A stretch of 64,000 nucleotides of DNA from Deltaproteobacteria bacterium (GTDB lineage: Bacteria > Desulfobacterota > Syntrophobacteria > Syntrophobacterales > Thermodesulforhabdaceae). Positions 2,430 to 50,092 of the stretch are shown piece after piece (within the stretch, counting starts at the first letter, position 1; the number at the start of each line of letters is the position of its first letter). The translations under genes were made by a program, and so were the position numbers. The stretch spans positions 1 to 64,000 of the forward strand of contig JAFDGW010000003.1 in the NCBI GenBank assembly GCA_019309115.1, given 5' to 3'. The notes beneath the pieces were generated by a model. The model did not search any database. It worked only from the letters and a program-made list of their open reading frames with translations, and had not been told where the DNA came from.

Positions 2430-3556
2430 TAGGCTTCTCCAGCATGTATGAGCAAATAATACAGATACCCTGCAAAGGCAGGGGCGCCAACACCACCGGC
2501 AATTAAAAACCAGTGAATCTTGTTTAACAATGCTAGCGCAAGCAAGAGGTAGGCAAAATCGCGGTTGGCAAGCTTATCGATAATTTCGGGTTTTTTGGTT
2601 TTTGTTCCGAGCGTGCTTTCAGAAAACAAAAGACCATTGTCACTAGATGCGGATACCGTTGAGGAAATCAGAAAAGCTCCCACGCTACCTCCAAGCAACA
2701 AGGCACCGAATAAAGCGTAGGGGAACAGGCCATATTGTTTCACGCAACCTACTGTAATTCCCGTAAATAGTACCCAATGCACTATGTTATCAGTGACTAC
2801 ATCCAGCCAACCTCCCAGTTTACTGGTCTGGTATCTAAGACGCGCCAGTTCGCCGTCGCAGCCATCAATAACTGACGAAGCCAGAAAAAGAAGGGCCCCC
2901 AACAAAGATAAAAAATAAGCTCCTTTAAAAAACATGGTTCCGGCGATGATTCCAAGGAGAAAATTGAGCAGCGTAATTTCATTTGGATGGATAAAGGTGT
3001 TGGCAAGCTTACGGGTTAGCCATAGGGACACTCGGCGATTAATCTTTTTGGTAAGCCAGCTGTCAGTGGGGCTTATGAGTTTTTCAAACAGTGTTGTTTC
3101 GATTTCCTGCAAGTCGTTCTGAGAGTTTATGACCTTCAGCCTTCCGTCCGGAGGTTCATCAATAATGTGTACGGTTCCAAAACCTTGCATAAACTTGAGC
3201 CACTTATTACATGCTGGTCTTGCCGGTTTTGACAGAACCGTAAAGTCGTCTGAAACCGCTCCAGTTTGTCGGATAGTTCCTTCAAGCGGGAAAGTATCTC
3301 CCCACAAAACGAGAAAATGCTCTTTGCAACCTCGCAGAATTCTTTCAAGTGCATCTGGATCTATGCATTTTATTTCGGATGGGGCGCAATTTCGGACACT
3401 CGAGTCCTTCGTTACCACATAAACGTCACTGCACCCTCCTCTTTTCAGAGTTATAATTTGTCTCATTATGAGAGGTAATCCGGCAACGGGAGTGCAAAGA
3501 GAAACCCCTTCGCCTCCCTCAAAGCAGTCAATAACAAGCGCCTGCAATGGTTGCAT
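2429..3556 (-). CDS. CDP-alcohol phosphatidyltransferase with degenerate N-terminal nucleotidyltransferase-like domain
   Basis: Integral membrane transferase of 375 aa that moves a phospho-alcohol from CDP to a hydroxyl acceptor. Residues about 1-150 look like a nucleotidyltransferase fold (PVAGLPLIMRQI, DVYVV) but lack the GxGTR loop and catalytic Lys, so they are probably inactive. The C-terminal domain (about 165-375) has the full family motif D-x2-DG-x2-AR-x8-G-x3-D-x3-D, starting DGCDGELAR, and several membrane helices. The segment SPTDSWLTKKINRRVS before it is typical of enzymes fused to a nucleotidyltransferase, such as the bifunctional IPCT/DIPPS of thermophiles. Here the active transferase is the separate downstream gene. 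The product could be di-inositol phosphate or a phospholipid; not decided by sequence. Confidence 0.8.
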   Translation of the reverse strand: MQPLQALVIDCFEGGEGVSLCTPVAGLPLIMRQIITLKRGGCSDVYVVTKDSSVRNCAPSEIKCIDPDALERILRGCKEHFLVLWGDTFPLEGTIRQTGAVSDDFTVLSKPARPACNKWLKFMQGFGTVHIIDEPPDGRLKVINSQNDLQEIETTLFEKLISPTDSWLTKKINRRVSLWLTRKLANTFIHPNEITLLNFLLGIIAGTMFFKGAYFLSLLGALLFLASSVIDGCDGELARLRYQTSKLGGWLDVVTDNIVHWVLFTGITVGCVKQYGLFPYALFGALLLGGSVGAFLISSTVSASSDNGLLFSESTLGTKTKKPEIIDKLANRDFAYLLLALALLNKIHWFLIAGGVGAPAFAGYLYYLLIHAGEA

Positions 3557-3574
3557 CCTTCCTTAAAGAATATG

Positions 3575-6034
3575 TTAGCAGCTGCATCCACCAGGAACCT
3601 CATTTTCTTCGTTTTCTTTTTTGCTTTCCTCCTCTTTGCCATATTTCCTAACTATTTCCGAAATTTCTCTAAGCCTGTCATCAACCTTTCTGAAAAAGGT
3701 ACCTTCCGGGTAAGTCCCATCTTCTTGAAGCTCCCCTGCCGGCATTCCTGTCAGTATTTCTATGCCTTCCTCAATCCTCGAAATGGGCCATATATGGAAC
3801 AACCCCTTTTCCACCGCTTCGATGACTTCTTTTTTCAGCATCAGGTTATTTATGTTTTTCTTTGGTATTATTACACCCTGTTTGCCTGTAAGTCCTTTGT
3901 GCTTGCATATATCAAAGAAGGCTTCAATCTTACGGGTGACCCCACCAACAGGCTGAATTTCCCCTTTTTGGCTAACCGATCCCGTAACGGCTATTCCTTG
4001 GTTCAACGGCACACCGGCTATTGCGCTCAGCAGTGCAAACAGTTCCGTACTAGATGCACTATCACCTTCGACAAGCCCGTAGCTCTGTTCAAAACAGAGT
4101 GTTGCTGTCAAGGAAATGGGTTTATTATGAGCAAATCGTTCCTTAAGAAAACTGGTGAGGATCATTATCCCTTTGGTATGAATTCTTCCACTGAGTTTGG
4201 ATTCTCTTTCAATAGCTATCACGCCTTCTCTGCCCACCGACACTGTTGCGGTTATTCGATTAGGCTTGCCGAACTCATGATCTCCCGTCATTAAAATAGA
4301 AAGCCCGTTTATTTGACCGATCTTCCAGCCGTCGATTTCAACCCAGAAAATGTCTTTTTCTACGAGTTCTTTAATTTTCTCTTCAATCAAGTTCGACCGA
4401 TAAATGCGCTTTTTGATTGCCTTTTCTATGTGTTCTTCTCTGATTATTTCCGACTGATCCAGAGATGCAAAGTAATCAGCTTCACGAATGAGGTCGCCTA
4501 TGTCTCCAAGTTCGAGAGACAACTTTTCACGGTCTTCCGTGCGTTCCATGCTGTATTCCAACAGCCTGGCAAAACCGGTCCTGTCCATGTGTTTGCATCC
4601 GTTTGTGCGACAGAACTGAGCCACCATCTGGGCACATTTCATCACGTTTTCGTCACTTCGGTTCATGCGATCGTCAAGATGGGCTTTAACCTTAAAGAGC
4701 TTTTGAAACTTGTCGTCATAAATGTACAAAAGTTCATACAGGAACGGATCTCCCGTGAGCACAATCTTTACATTAAAAGGAATTGGTTCGGGGCGGATGG
4801 TCCTGGTGCTGAACAATCCGTAGAGTTCACCTAGGTCTTCGATCTTTATTTCCTTGTCCCGTAAAGCCCGTTTCAAAGCTTCCCAGGATATGTACCATTT
4901 CAACAGGTCCAGAGCCTTCATCACCAGATAGCCGCCGTTGGCTCTGTGCAGAGCGCCGGGCTTTATCATTGTAAAGTCCGTAAAAAGTGCGCCAAACCAG
5001 GCCTGACGTTCAATGGTTCCAAAAAGATTAGGATAGGCGGGGTTGGATTCGACGACTACCGGAGCTCCTTCTGTTTCGGAATTGTCTATAAATACGTTCA
5101 CATCATATCGCTTCATTGCTCCGTTTTTCTGGGGTGCAGGGAATGGAGCGTGTGGTTGCTGCGACTCATCGGCCTTCTTTTTAAATTCGTCAATATTTTC
5201 CAGGATATCTTCCTGCACCGCTTTCAGGTATTCAATCACATCCTGTTCATCTCGATACTTTTCTAGATAAGTTTCCAAGATCTGACCAACCACGAAAAGC
5301 GCAATTTCACTATCAAGTTTATTCCTTTTTTCGCGAAATTGGTTCTCCAGGTCACGAATTTTCTTGATCGCTTCTTTCATTTTTTCCTGAAGTTCATCGC
5401 TCTTTTCCCGAAGCCTCTGCTTTTCTTCGTCGCTTAACTGAGCCAGATCTTCTTGGCTCATGGGCTGACCATCAGGCCCCGCCGGTATTATGACCATCCC
5501 TACCTGGGAAAACTGAAGAATGAACCCTTCTTGCTGTGCCAGTTCAGAGAGCTCGTCGATAATTCCCCGCCGCTTTGCTTCAAATGCTTGTTGAAGTTCC
5601 TTCTCCTTCGCTCGGTAATCGTCACTATCGAACACTTCCGGAATCTTCTGCTGCAACGTTTGGATAAACTCGTGCATGTCTTTTTTAAGTTCTTTACCCT
5701 TACCGGGGCTTAACTTGATAGCTTTTGGCTTATCCGGTTCCTTAAAATTATAGACATAGCACCAGTCAGGCGGTGTAGGTTCCTTTTTAGCCTGTTCTTC
5801 CAGCAATGTTTTAGCGATGTAAGTAAGTCCGGTTTTTGGAGGCCCGGCCACAAAGATATTGTACCCATCCGCTTTCATACCCATGCCGAATTTTATTGCG
5901 TCTACTCCACGTTCCTGCCCGAGGACCGGAATTGATTCATCGTTGAGTTCGGCGGTAGTGTCGAAGGGCAAGTTTTCAGGATCTATTCTGGCACGAAGCT
6001 CCTCAGGTGACAATTGAGGGTGGTGTTCAATCAT
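3575..6034 (-). CDS. Lon-like AAA+ protease (LonB/AAA_32 family)
   Basis: ATP-dependent protease-like protein of 819 aa. The N-terminal AAA region has a P-loop-like segment GPPKTGLT (64-71) in which Leu replaces the usual Lys, followed by a long coiled-coil (about 130-290, Glu/Lys/Gln rich), then a Walker-B-like region around NGGYLVMKALDLL. The C-terminal Lon S16 domain has the catalytic dyad: Ser659 in GDSAS and Lys702 in GGVTRKIEA. The tail is charged and ends in a Cys-rich GGCSC. It has no Lon substrate-binding N domain, so it is not canonical Lon. Start ATG 6034 has AGGAGGAA upstream. Cytoplasmic; the substrates are unknown. It follows the khpA gene by 18 bases in the operon. Confidence 0.87.
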   Translation of the reverse strand: MIEHHPQLSPEELRARIDPENLPFDTTAELNDESIPVLGQERGVDAIKFGMGMKADGYNIFVAGPPKTGLTYIAKTLLEEQAKKEPTPPDWCYVYNFKEPDKPKAIKLSPGKGKELKKDMHEFIQTLQQKIPEVFDSDDYRAKEKELQQAFEAKRRGIIDELSELAQQEGFILQFSQVGMVIIPAGPDGQPMSQEDLAQLSDEEKQRLREKSDELQEKMKEAIKKIRDLENQFREKRNKLDSEIALFVVGQILETYLEKYRDEQDVIEYLKAVQEDILENIDEFKKKADESQQPHAPFPAPQKNGAMKRYDVNVFIDNSETEGAPVVVESNPAYPNLFGTIERQAWFGALFTDFTMIKPGALHRANGGYLVMKALDLLKWYISWEALKRALRDKEIKIEDLGELYGLFSTRTIRPEPIPFNVKIVLTGDPFLYELLYIYDDKFQKLFKVKAHLDDRMNRSDENVMKCAQMVAQFCRTNGCKHMDRTGFARLLEYSMERTEDREKLSLELGDIGDLIREADYFASLDQSEIIREEHIEKAIKKRIYRSNLIEEKIKELVEKDIFWVEIDGWKIGQINGLSILMTGDHEFGKPNRITATVSVGREGVIAIERESKLSGRIHTKGIMILTSFLKERFAHNKPISLTATLCFEQSYGLVEGDSASSTELFALLSAIAGVPLNQGIAVTGSVSQKGEIQPVGGVTRKIEAFFDICKHKGLTGKQGVIIPKKNINNLMLKKEVIEAVEKGLFHIWPISRIEEGIEILTGMPAGELQEDGTYPEGTFFRKVDDRLREISEIVRKYGKEEESKKENEENEVPGGCSC

Positions 6035-31228: not shown

Positions 31229-31501
31229 ATGACGAAAGCGGAATTGGTAGGTAAAATGGCAGAAAAGGCCGGTATCAGCAAAGCCAATGCAGAAAAGGCT
31301 TTGAATGCTTTTATGGAAACGGTGAAGGAAGCTCTAGCCACAGGTGACAAGATCAGCCTTGTGGGTTTCGGGACTTTCAGTGTTGCCGAGCGTGCTGCTC
31401 GTGAGGGTAGGAATCCTAAAACTGGCGAGAAGATAACGATACCTGCGTGCAAGGTTGTCAAGTTTAAACCGGGTAACAGCCTGAAGGATGCTGTAAAGTA
31501 G
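31229..31501 (+). CDS. hup: HU/IHF family DNA-binding protein
   Basis: 90-aa histone-like protein that bends and compacts [31 protein letters not shown] and the beta-arm [10 protein letters not shown] with the intercalating Pro are typical; ends at KDAVK as in HU. GGAGGAGAGGG stands directly before ATG 31229. Monocistronic with its own promoter. A second HU/IHF gene lies at 35349-35630. Confidence 0.95.
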
Positions 31502-31589
31502 GCAAAGAAAATTCGGGACAGGGCGTTAGGTAGGGGGTTTTGTCAACAGTTGCTTGATTTTTTGATTTTATTTGCTTGTTCATATGCAC

Positions 31590-31664
31590 ATGAGCAGATT
31601 ATACCGCATAGGAGATGCGGCACGGATATTAGGTGTATCTGTGGTGTATCTGTCCAGAGTTTGA
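31590..31664 (+). pseudogene. IS607-type tnpA 5' remnant (MerR-like HTH)
   Basis: Reading from ATG 31590 gives 24 codons to TGA 31662-31664, including LYRIGDAARILGVSV. This is the start of a MerR-like helix-turn-helix as found at the N-terminus of IS607 TnpA serine recombinases. The catalytic domain is missing. In copy 2 the corresponding DNA is shorter and the ATG is lost. A small MerR regulator fragment is the alternative. Confidence 0.6.
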
Positions 31665-31677
31665 GGAGATAAGATTT

Positions 31678-31797
31678 GTGAGCTGTGGAAAACCGGAAGG
31701 GCAGAGCTCTGACGGTGTCAGGCAACATGAGCTGTTACGTCTGACTCCACAGCTCATTGAAGTGGATGCTCATCTGAGCAAAAATAGGAAGCTGTGA
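31678..31797 (+). pseudogene. Conserved 39-codon frame, possible tnpB 3' end (copy 1)
   Basis: An open frame from GTG 31678 to TGA 31795-31797 encodes a Cys-Gly-containing basic peptide (VSCGKPEGQ... LTPQLIEVD... NRKL). Copy 2 has the same frame and stop (49597-49716) with a few amino acid changes. In IS607 and IS605 elements tnpB lies downstream of tnpA and its 3' end overlaps the guide RNA, so this could be the tnpB tail. It could also be an unrelated small ORF: GAGGAG at 31663-31668 is a possible ribosome site. Confidence 0.4.
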
Positions 31798-31815
31798 GTG
31801 GGAAAAAGGTAACGG
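31680..31815 (+). ncRNA. Structured RNA segment of the repeat element (copy 1), possible omega RNA
   Basis: Can fold into: P1 GAGCTGTGGA (31680-31689) with TCCACAGCTC (31746-31755); inside it a hairpin AGGGC/GCTCT (31698-31702 with 31706-31710) and a hairpin GTCAGGC/GTCTGAC (31717-31723 with 31739-31745) carrying AACA/TGTT (31724-31727 with 31733-31736). Downstream is TGCTC/GAGCA (31767-31771 with 31776-31780) and a conserved tail to ACGG. Most differences from copy 2 in these stems keep pairing. A TnpB-type guide RNA at the element right end would carry its guide in the flank from 31816. Confidence 0.5.
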
Positions 31816-31861
31816 TTGTCAACGTGGCGCTCTGTCCCGGAGAGTTGAGAGAACAGCGCTA

Positions 31862-34645
<2,784 letters not shown>

Positions 34646-48124: not shown

Positions 48125-49369
48125 ATGAGGCTAGAAGAAAGAGATACGGAATCACTGGATGGTATTTTCCTTTTGGAAAATGGAATTCGAAAATGCAGGG
48201 AGAATAACGAAAATTCTATGGAAGTTGATGAATTAGAATTTTCCGGATCGAATGATGATAAAACCGAGATAGCCGAAGACACGGAGGCCGCAGGGGTAGA
48301 TGTAGACGAATATCTTTTTGATTCTGACCATGTTTCAGCATATTTGAAGGAAATTGCTGGGTATTATTTGTTAAGTCCTGAGCGCGAGATTGAGCTGGCG
48401 GAGACGATTAGAGATGGTCAGAATGAACTAATGGAACTTGTTAAGGAAGAAGCCTCTAGAGACGATCATTTTCGACAGATTCATCGGAAGGTTTTGAAAC
48501 TCCATGCGAAGGAAAAAAAGTTTCCTGGTGTTAGAGACAAGATCTTGAAGGTAATCCAGCGATCCATCAATCAGATGGTGAAGAAATGGCCCGATAACGA
48601 GCACTACTGGGATTTGAAGTGCCGCTGTGATGAAATAATGGATCGTATTAATAGGGCAAAAAATGAAATGGTAAAGGGCAATCTCCGATTGGTCCTCAGT
48701 ATTGCTAAAAGATATCGTGGAAGAGGGATGAGTTTTGACGATCTGATTCAAGAAGGAAATCTTGGGCTTTTAAAAGCCGTTGGGAGGTATGATCACACGA
48801 AGGGTAACCGATTCAGCACTTATGCCACGTGGTGGGTCAGGCAGAGTATAATTCGCGGTATTTACGACAAAACCCGCACCATAAGACTTCCGGTGCATTT
48901 TATCGAACTGCGGAATCTGTATCACAAGGTTTATCACGAGCTGTATAGGGAATTCGGTAGAGAACCAACGCTGGAAGAGATTGCCGAAAGGGCAGGGATA
49001 CCTTCAGACAAGGTGGAATCTGTCATCAAAACTACGGGGCAACCTCTGTCGTTGGATATGACGGTTGGTGATGACGACCAAAAACTGGGAGATTTTATTG
49101 CCAGCATTTCTGAGGATTCGCCGGCTGATTCGATGAGGGAAAAGGAGCTTTATGAGGTGCTCAGGCGTTTGCTGGCGACTTTGCAACCTCGAGAAGAGAA
49201 AATCTTGCGTCTCAGATTTGGGATAGATGGTAATCCTGAGGAAACACTCGAGCAAATCGGTCGCAGTTTTAATGTGTCCAAAGAAAGGATCAGGCAGATC
49301 GAAAAGAAGGCTTTGCAGAAACTTCAACATCCGAAAAGGCGGGCGTTACTAGAACCGTTCCTTGAGTGA
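48125..49369 (+). CDS. Sigma-70 family sigma factor (RpoD/RpoS-like)
   Basis: 414-aa RNA polymerase sigma factor. Region 1.2 around DHVSAYLKEIAGYYLLSPEREIELAETI; region 2 with RLVLSIAKRYRGRGMSFDDLIQEGNLGLLKAVGRYD and FSTYATWWVRQSIIRGIYDKTRTIRLPVH; region 3; region 4 with IGRSFNVSKERIRQIEKKALQKL (helix-turn-helix for -35). The first 60 residues are acidic and no long region 1.1 is seen, so this could be a short primary sigma or a group 2 factor of RpoS type. GAGGAGGG precedes ATG 48125. Confidence 0.9.
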   Translation: MRLEERDTESLDGIFLLENGIRKCRENNENSMEVDELEFSGSNDDKTEIAEDTEAAGVDVDEYLFDSDHVSAYLKEIAGYYLLSPEREIELAETIRDGQNELMELVKEEASRDDHFRQIHRKVLKLHAKEKKFPGVRDKILKVIQRSINQMVKKWPDNEHYWDLKCRCDEIMDRINRAKNEMVKGNLRLVLSIAKRYRGRGMSFDDLIQEGNLGLLKAVGRYDHTKGNRFSTYATWWVRQSIIRGIYDKTRTIRLPVHFIELRNLYHKVYHELYREFGREPTLEEIAERAGIPSDKVESVIKTTGQPLSLDMTVGDDDQKLGDFIASISEDSPADSMREKELYEVLRRLLATLQPREEKILRLRFGIDGNPEETLEQIGRSFNVSKERIRQIEKKALQKLQHPKRRALLEPFLE

Positions 49370-49596
49370 GCTGCAATGGAGCGTCTTGGTAATGCTAGCT
49401 GTTACTTGGCTTTGTAATTTTCCAAGTGTATGCTGACCAACGGGGATAGATTTATGGGACTGGAAGTTTTCTGGCTGAGGGCTGTAGGAAATTCAAGGGC
49501 GAGCAGGCGAAAGGGTTATTAACAGTTACTTGATTTTTTGATTTTATTTGCTTATTTGTATGCATGCACACAAACGAGTTATAGTGTTATAGATTT

Positions 49597-49716
49597 ATGA
49601 GCTGTGGGCAACTAAAGGGGCTTGTCTCCGATGGTGTCAGGCAACGTAAGCCGTTACGTCTGACTCCACAGCTCATTGAAGTGGATGTTCATCTGAGCAG
49701 AAATAGGAAGCTGTGA
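49597..49716 (+). pseudogene. Conserved 39-codon frame, possible tnpB 3' end (copy 2)
   Basis: The frame ATG 49597 to TGA 49714-49716 encodes a 39-residue basic peptide (MSCGQLKGL ... NRKL) related to the copy 1 frame. The two share the same frame and stop; substitutions such as Ala to Val and Lys to Arg are conservative. A remnant of tnpB or a small independent ORF cannot be told apart from this window. No ribosome site is visible. Confidence 0.35.
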
Positions 49717-49734
49717 GTAGGAAAAAGGTGACGG
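49599..49734 (+). ncRNA. Structured RNA segment of the repeat element (copy 2)
   Basis: Same fold as at 31680-31815. Against copy 1, A-U in the inner hairpin becomes G-C (49646 with 49652), A-U becomes G-C in another stem (49617 with 49629), C-G becomes U-G in the 3' hairpin (49688 with 49697), and the P1 extension pair A-U becomes G-U (49608). One pair is lost: C-G becomes C-U (49621 with 49625). If it acts as a TnpB-type guide RNA, the guide would begin at 49735, just upstream of yhbY. Confidence 0.48.
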
Positions 49735-49753
49735 TAAAGCGTCTAGTTTGGGC

Positions 49754-50092
49754 ATGTGTCATGAGGAACTCAAGAGTGTGGATTGGAAGCCCAACCCACT
49801 GGGGCGCCTTAAAGGCAAGATCAAAGCAGAGTTGAAGCGCAAGGCTCATCATTTGAGGCCCGTCGTTCAGATAGGGCATAGCGGAGTAACTGATGATGTT
49901 ATCGCTGAAATTCGTCGGCAACTCCTGATTCACGAGCTGATAAAGGTTAAATGGGCATCACTCACCAAGGAAGACGGCAACAAAAAGGAACAGGCTCGTG
50001 ATCTTGCAGAAAGAGTGGGAGCTCATTTTATATCTCTGATTGGCCAGGTAGTTGTGCTTTATCGCCGACGGGAAGATAAGATTATATCATAG
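49754..50092 (+). CDS. yhbY: CRM-domain RNA-binding protein (YhbY)
   Basis: 112 aa. The CRM domain spans from LKGKIKAELKRKAHHLRPVVQIGHSGVTDDVI to VGQVVVLYRR-type strands; the GxxG-like loop GHSG is visible. Members associate with the large ribosomal subunit precursor. The start is unsure (ATG 49754 or the TTG at 49748, or ATG 49763); ribosome-site matches are poor, and the repeat element ends 19 bases upstream of ATG 49754. Confidence 0.87.
   Translation: MCHEELKSVDWKPNPLGRLKGKIKAELKRKAHHLRPVVQIGHSGVTDDVIAEIRRQLLIHELIKVKWASLTKEDGNKKEQARDLAERVGAHFISLIGQVVVLYRRREDKIIS

Follow-up and report, generated by a model that had tools for sequence, protein, structure and literature searches.

What are two short DNA segments that resemble each other at both ends and nowhere else, and how did they come to lie where they are? 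The window analysed here is a stretch of 64,000 nt (bases 1-64000 of contig C25 in a host genome of 2.51 Mb and 72 contigs). An initial, sequence-only reading had placed two such segments in it, at 31535-31815 and 49513-49734, where both were found, and had described them as IS607-derived, MITE-like relics. The available data make it very probable that they belong to a family of MITEs that descends from an IS607-type insertion sequence, would be mobilised by TnpA and carries the probable scaffold of a TnpB guide RNA. We hold the MITE identity firmly and a working guide RNA loosely, because the pairing may go back to selection in autonomous ancestors, the core in type A varies no less than the ends, and neither a sigma-70 site nor an intact cognate TnpB was found.

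The features of the two copies, compared with a full-length IS607 element on contig C65 (see below), are as follows.

31535-31815, + strand: type B MITE copy, 281 nt including the GG at both edges (279 nt net insertion)
31229-31501 and 31862-32641: neighbouring HU-like and nucleoside-phosphorylase-like genes
31535-31589, + strand: left end, with the GG core, GTTTTGTCAACAG and a directly repeated TTGATTTT motif; matches the C65 left end
31590-31664, + strand: remnant of the tnpA start (beginning of a MerR-like HTH), 24 codons and a stop
31677-31756, + strand: candidate reRNA/ωRNA scaffold core, a three-way junction homologous to the C65 tnpB 3' end; z = -6.0
31757-31815, + strand: right end, terminating in AAAAAGGTAACGG; the flank after 31815 would be the guide
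49513-49734, + strand: type A MITE copy, 222 nt (220 nt net insertion)
48125-49369 and 49748-50092: neighbouring sigma-70-family and YhbY-like genes
49513-49564, + strand: left end, with the GG core and TTGATTTT repeats
49596-49675, + strand: candidate reRNA/ωRNA scaffold core; covariance-model score 108 bits, z = -4.0
49676-49734, + strand: right end, terminating in AAAAAGGTGACGG

Aligned with each other, the right ends are identical at 125 of 145 positions without gaps (E=3e-43 for the pair), in agreement with the earlier gapless count of 117 of 136, and the leader first given as 34 of 36 bases is contained in an alignment of 47 of 54 positions with two 1-nt gaps. Flanks and middles differ, as had been noted. 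When each copy was used as a query against the whole host genome, 30 stretches matched the copy at 31535-31815 and 22 the copy at 49513-49734; the resemblance of the window pair therefore reflects a dispersed family, not chance. Instead of the two elements originally counted, about 17 copies or fragments are present, at unrelated sites, and they fall into the following forms.

Type A, 222 nt, 8 intact copies: window 49513-49734, C9 (two), C13, C58, C61, C63 and C72
Type A, cut by contig ends or deletions: C19, C21, C37, C2 and C49
Type B, 275-281 nt, tnpA start retained: window 31535-31815 and C1
Type C, a divergent third form: C64

The intact type A copies are 92-98% identical in pairwise comparisons, which is a poor fit to the term 'relic'. 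The proposal that the middles arose by independent internal deletions also finds no support, since type A looks like a further-deleted form near type B. The copies are short and dispersed, lack coding capacity and have a near-constant structure, as MITEs do. No perfect terminal inverted repeat and no target duplication was seen at their edges, so that the classic definition of a MITE does not apply; the word is taken broadly here, for any non-autonomous miniature element, because IS607 elements themselves have neither feature (PMC6188088).

Some further matches accompany the family. On C27 (8343-8381 of locus L067) only the leader matches (GTTGTTAACAGTTGCTTGATTTTTGAT), with no right end, and this is likely a left-end remnant. 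The truncated copy on C49 (357-489 of locus L065) adjoins, and perhaps lies inside, a different tnpB, of which a TnpB-type match is found at C49:528-626 on the other strand; the second half of this domain also occurs near C16:4-102 and C3:94575-94673. Long frames across the joined flanks of one C9 copy (C9b) and of the C13 copy were considered as disrupted genes and rejected, their composition being that of non-coding noise.

A full-length IS607-family relative with these ends lies in the same genome, at about 16791-18900 of C65, reaching the contig end and carrying tnpA and then tnpB. Its left end begins with GGGCTGTTAACAGTCGCTTGATTTTC and its right end finishes with AAAAAGGTGACGGT. TnpA is an intact serine recombinase of 204 aa which matches the NCBIfam model NF033518, 'IS607 family transposase', at 186 bits (cut-off 110); the N-terminal MerR/HTH_17 and Resolvase domains of Pfam that characterise IS607 TnpA are found in the full element only, and the nearest solved structure is that of ISC1926 TnpA (PDB, E=4.5e-36). 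Downstream, as in IS607 elements, tnpB matches Pfam PF07282 (67.8 bits). This gene (2945-4397 of the extracted locus L090) is broken by a stop codon that follows residue 107 in frame and by a frameshift near L090:3705; judging from the reading frames, a GIDxG (RuvC-I) segment cannot be recognised between the two. The last 114 nt of the C65 element recur unchanged at the start of contigs C70 and C37, where they run on into two different flanks, so that the assembly has probably collapsed two or more copies of the element.

The MITEs share about 70-80% identity with the C65 element at each end, and their cores are 76-82% identical to its core. Moreover, the 31590-31664 frame, which reads MSRLYRIGDAARILGVSVVYLSRV and then a stop, is identical to the start of C65 TnpA (MSRLYRIGNAARILGVSV) at 17 of its first 18 residues, and type B copies retain MSRLYRIGDAARILGVSV (17 of 18 residues as in C65 TnpA). 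The initial assignment of this frame to the N-terminus of an IS607 TnpA, as opposed to an unrelated gene, is thus borne out. The C65 element is thus a cousin, and the MITEs did not arise from it by direct deletion: they are without about 63 nt that its right end has, and their relict tnpB frame ends with RLTPQLIEVDVHLSRNRKL followed by a stop, unlike C65 tnpB. The host assembly holds neither a direct MITE parent nor an intact cognate TnpB, the C65 tnpB being the only cognate found. Two near-identical lone IS607-type tnpA genes also occur at contig ends (C38, 613-1233 of locus L100; C10, 53-661 of locus L101); with about 40% identity to C65 TnpA, they are by sequence comparison a separate IS607 group in the host. 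They were set aside as MITE partners, C65 TnpA being the one that matches the MITE remnant.

IS607 serine transposases use a (G)GG target, make no duplication and act on elements without terminal inverted repeats (PMC6188088). The complete copies of the family run GG|G...CGG between unrelated flanks. Both window copies end in ACGG, from which GG-targeting had first been proposed, and the edges of the complete copies agree with this; CGG also closes nearly all other copies. By inspection, 13 of 14 left flanks have a purine immediately before the GG, and all 15 right flanks have T or C immediately after it. The targets can therefore be written R-GG-Y, and no target duplication is seen at the copies' edges.

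Comparison with empty sites in relatives had been suggested as a means of confirming the edges. It succeeded in part. In G002 and G003, two members of the host's taxonomic family, the HU-like gene still neighbours the phosphorylase-like gene and the sigma-70 gene the YhbY-like gene; the spacers between them are short and contain no element. Counted from tblastn ends, the HU-phosphorylase spacer is about 65 nt in G002 and 78 nt in G003, against 360 nt in the window (81 after subtracting 279), and the sigma-YhbY spacer is about 94 and 87 nt, against 378 nt (158 after subtracting 220). These element-free spacers support insertion at both window sites and, together with the edges of the complete copies, point to GG insertion without target duplication. 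They are too diverged for base-by-base alignment, so that for the exact edges we rely on the alignment of the family's copies.

The next question is what the long right end represents. The reRNA, or ωRNA, of TnpB elements extends from the tnpB 3' end to the right edge (PMC10711439, PMC11061315), and in an IS607 element an reRNA of about 150 nt crosses the right end, the TAM being GGG (PMC10711439). By homology to C65 and to a second genome (G285, below), the shared right end of about 140 nt likewise starts inside the tnpB 3' end and runs to the element edge. It therefore probably corresponds to the scaffold of a TnpB guide RNA. The core is 83 nt long in all 15 sequences and adopts a common fold closed as a three-way junction, so that a conserved structured RNA spans the interval from the tnpB 3' end to the right edge. 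Next to the -6.0 and -4.0 of the 31535 and 49513 copies, the folding z-score of the C65 core is -3.0; the whole 139-nt right ends of the window copies fold more weakly (-4.2 and -1.9).

Across 13 sequences, 96% of the cells of the core are paired, falling to 33-43% when the partners are slid. Four core pairs have changed on both sides, and compensatory exchanges are seen, U-A/C-G at columns 10/77 and A-U/C-G/G-C at 21/39; mismatches affect two stem pairs, in 5-6 of the 13 sequences. The window cores differ from that of C65 by 15 and 20 substitutions with no pair lost, and when these substitutions are placed at random, the probability of retaining that number of pairs is about 2e-4 or lower for each copy. 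All these figures are somewhat favourable because the structure was derived from the same sequences. Where U-A stands in place of C-G in the outer stem, both tnpB codons are altered, and the change thus preserves RNA pairing and not protein.

Within type A, mean pairwise diversity is 0.051 in the core, 0.034 and 0.031 in the ends and 0.089 in the middle; the core is thus no better conserved than the ends. Because core diversity is not reduced and stem pairs are mismatched, present-day selection on the RNA is unsupported. Pairing of the core may have been selected in autonomous ancestors, before the MITEs arose. Scans for sigma-70 promoters and for terminators were negative, with no promoter-like site found. 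No Rfam model matched in the window at its gathering score, nor at E up to 10 within 31500-31850, and the other loci searched gave unrelated sub-threshold matches only; identity with RAGATH-18 is therefore unsupported.

In the preferred scenario, an internal deletion would have removed nearly all of tnpA and tnpB and left both ends. We infer mobilisation in trans by an IS607 serine recombinase TnpA, of which an intact one is encoded in C65; it would cut the element out at its GG termini in the form of a circle and integrate this circle at new R-GG-Y sites without target duplication. We also infer that the fold is an reRNA. The putative transcript would start near TGAGCTGTGG and run past ACGG into each flank, so that the host flank beside each copy would be its guide, if transcribed. 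Past use of the scaffold by TnpB would have retained or re-copied the element.

A stronger proposal is that the MITEs are retained in the role of reRNA genes, the guide from each one acting in trans on that MITE's own empty site, where TnpB would cut and repair would re-copy the MITE. The scaffold core is indeed kept, with compensatory pairing, in all untruncated copies of types A, B and C. Moreover, a right end of 140 nt exceeds what IS1535 would need, where the TnpA footprint on the right end covers bp 10-28 only (PMC6188088), and the purine-GG left flanks resemble the GGG and AG-rich TAMs of IS607 TnpBs (PMC10711439, PMC11061315). However, the sole cognate tnpB found is broken, the roughly 63 nt missing from the MITEs belong to the right ends of full elements, type A shows no reduction of diversity in the core, the promoter scan was negative, and the structure may predate the MITEs, having been conserved in autonomous parents. 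We consider this proposal unlikely on balance. Its broader form, a multicopy family made of two ends and a guide scaffold in which each insertion would make a guide against its own empty site while borrowing both TnpA and TnpB, appears equally doubtful.

Less probable still, and already disfavoured, is the view that the copies are degraded IS607 elements, long immobile and a family in appearance only. Truncation of some copies (C2, C37, C49, C27, C64) and decay of the full element's tnpB would fit it. Yet the 8 type A copies lie at unlinked sites, agree in internal structure and show 92-98% identity, which requires amplification after the deletion; C65 TnpA is intact, and the identical right end of the full element is joined to two different flanks (C70, C37). 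Finally, a structured repeat unrelated to transposons, such as an intergenic hairpin or regulatory RNA family resembling IS607, can hardly be entertained in spite of the strong hairpins and intergenic location, since ends, tnpA start and tnpB 3' end all match a full-length IS607 element of the same genome, the edges are GG-precise and relatives lack the element at both loci.

With respect to known systems, the tested features place the MITE family among the non-autonomous IS607 derivatives. It resembles insertion sequences of the IS607 family (IS607, IS1535, ISC1926, ISXfa1) in its GG target and termini and lack of target duplication, and the full C65 element has both the MerR-HTH plus serine-recombinase TnpA and the tnpB 3' end/reRNA at its right end; in contrast, the window copies measure 220-280 nt and encode no protein. 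The closest published parallel found is a single PATE-like IS605 remnant of Halanaerobium hydrogeniformans, made of 28 nt of left end, the last 58 nt of tnpB and 160 nt of right end (PMC7290912). PATEs (ends-only IS200/IS605 derivatives) are likewise short and non-coding and keep both ends with the tnpB 3' end, but IS200/IS605 elements use a Y1 HUH transposase and palindromic ends, and the Halanaerobium example is single-copy. The candidate scaffold shares with the reRNA/ωRNA of IS607 TnpBs (ISXfa1, PMC10711439; RAGATH-18 type, PMC11061315) its location, a host flank that would be the guide and a purine-rich, GG, TAM-like left flank, whereas here it is found alone, multicopy, without a working tnpB and without an Rfam match. 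In the literature searched, whose coverage is incomplete, no description of an IS607-derived MITE was found. Stand-alone ωRNAs of an IscB system in Ktedonobacter were reportedly described by Altae-Tran and colleagues in 2021. These are also multicopy guide-RNA loci away from the nuclease gene, in an IscB/IS200-605 context; here, the RNA is a candidate only.

Studies of reRNA usually concern RNAs next to their nuclease. With a family whose members are minimal, nearly identical and all in possession of the scaffold, it would become directly testable whether TnpB guide RNAs acting in trans can keep nuclease-less transposons in a genome, and what the lower size limit of an IS607 element is. Even with the RNA unused, the family would still provide a natural definition of sufficient IS607 ends. 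Compared with the sequence-only reading, what is new is the copy number of about 17, the probable identity of the right end as tnpB 3' end and guide-RNA scaffold, and the decay of the resident tnpB.

Among 59 genomes of the host's family, the MITE was found in one, the host itself. Searches of genome-contig and viral-contig collections (right-end motif scans and TnpB C-terminus searches) returned nothing usable, and the only TnpBs retrieved from plasmid and phage collections were distant ones, below 60% identity. Among 395 genomes of the phylum, a covariance model of the RNA core matched in the host and in G285 only. The latter is an incomplete genome (1.4 Mb, 68% complete) from another class, in which the core is likewise located at the 3' end of tnpB; these G285 elements suggest horizontal spread of this IS607 group. 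Two are seen, on contigs C142 and C83 (L107/L108), with tnpB 3' ends 82-83% identical.

Lastly, in the window, inverted-repeat arms at 31514-31521 and 31832-31839 (CGGGACAG...CTGTCCCG) bracket the 31535-31815 copy downstream of the HU-like gene. Because it lies between these arms, the copy may have split a hairpin of the 3' region of this gene.
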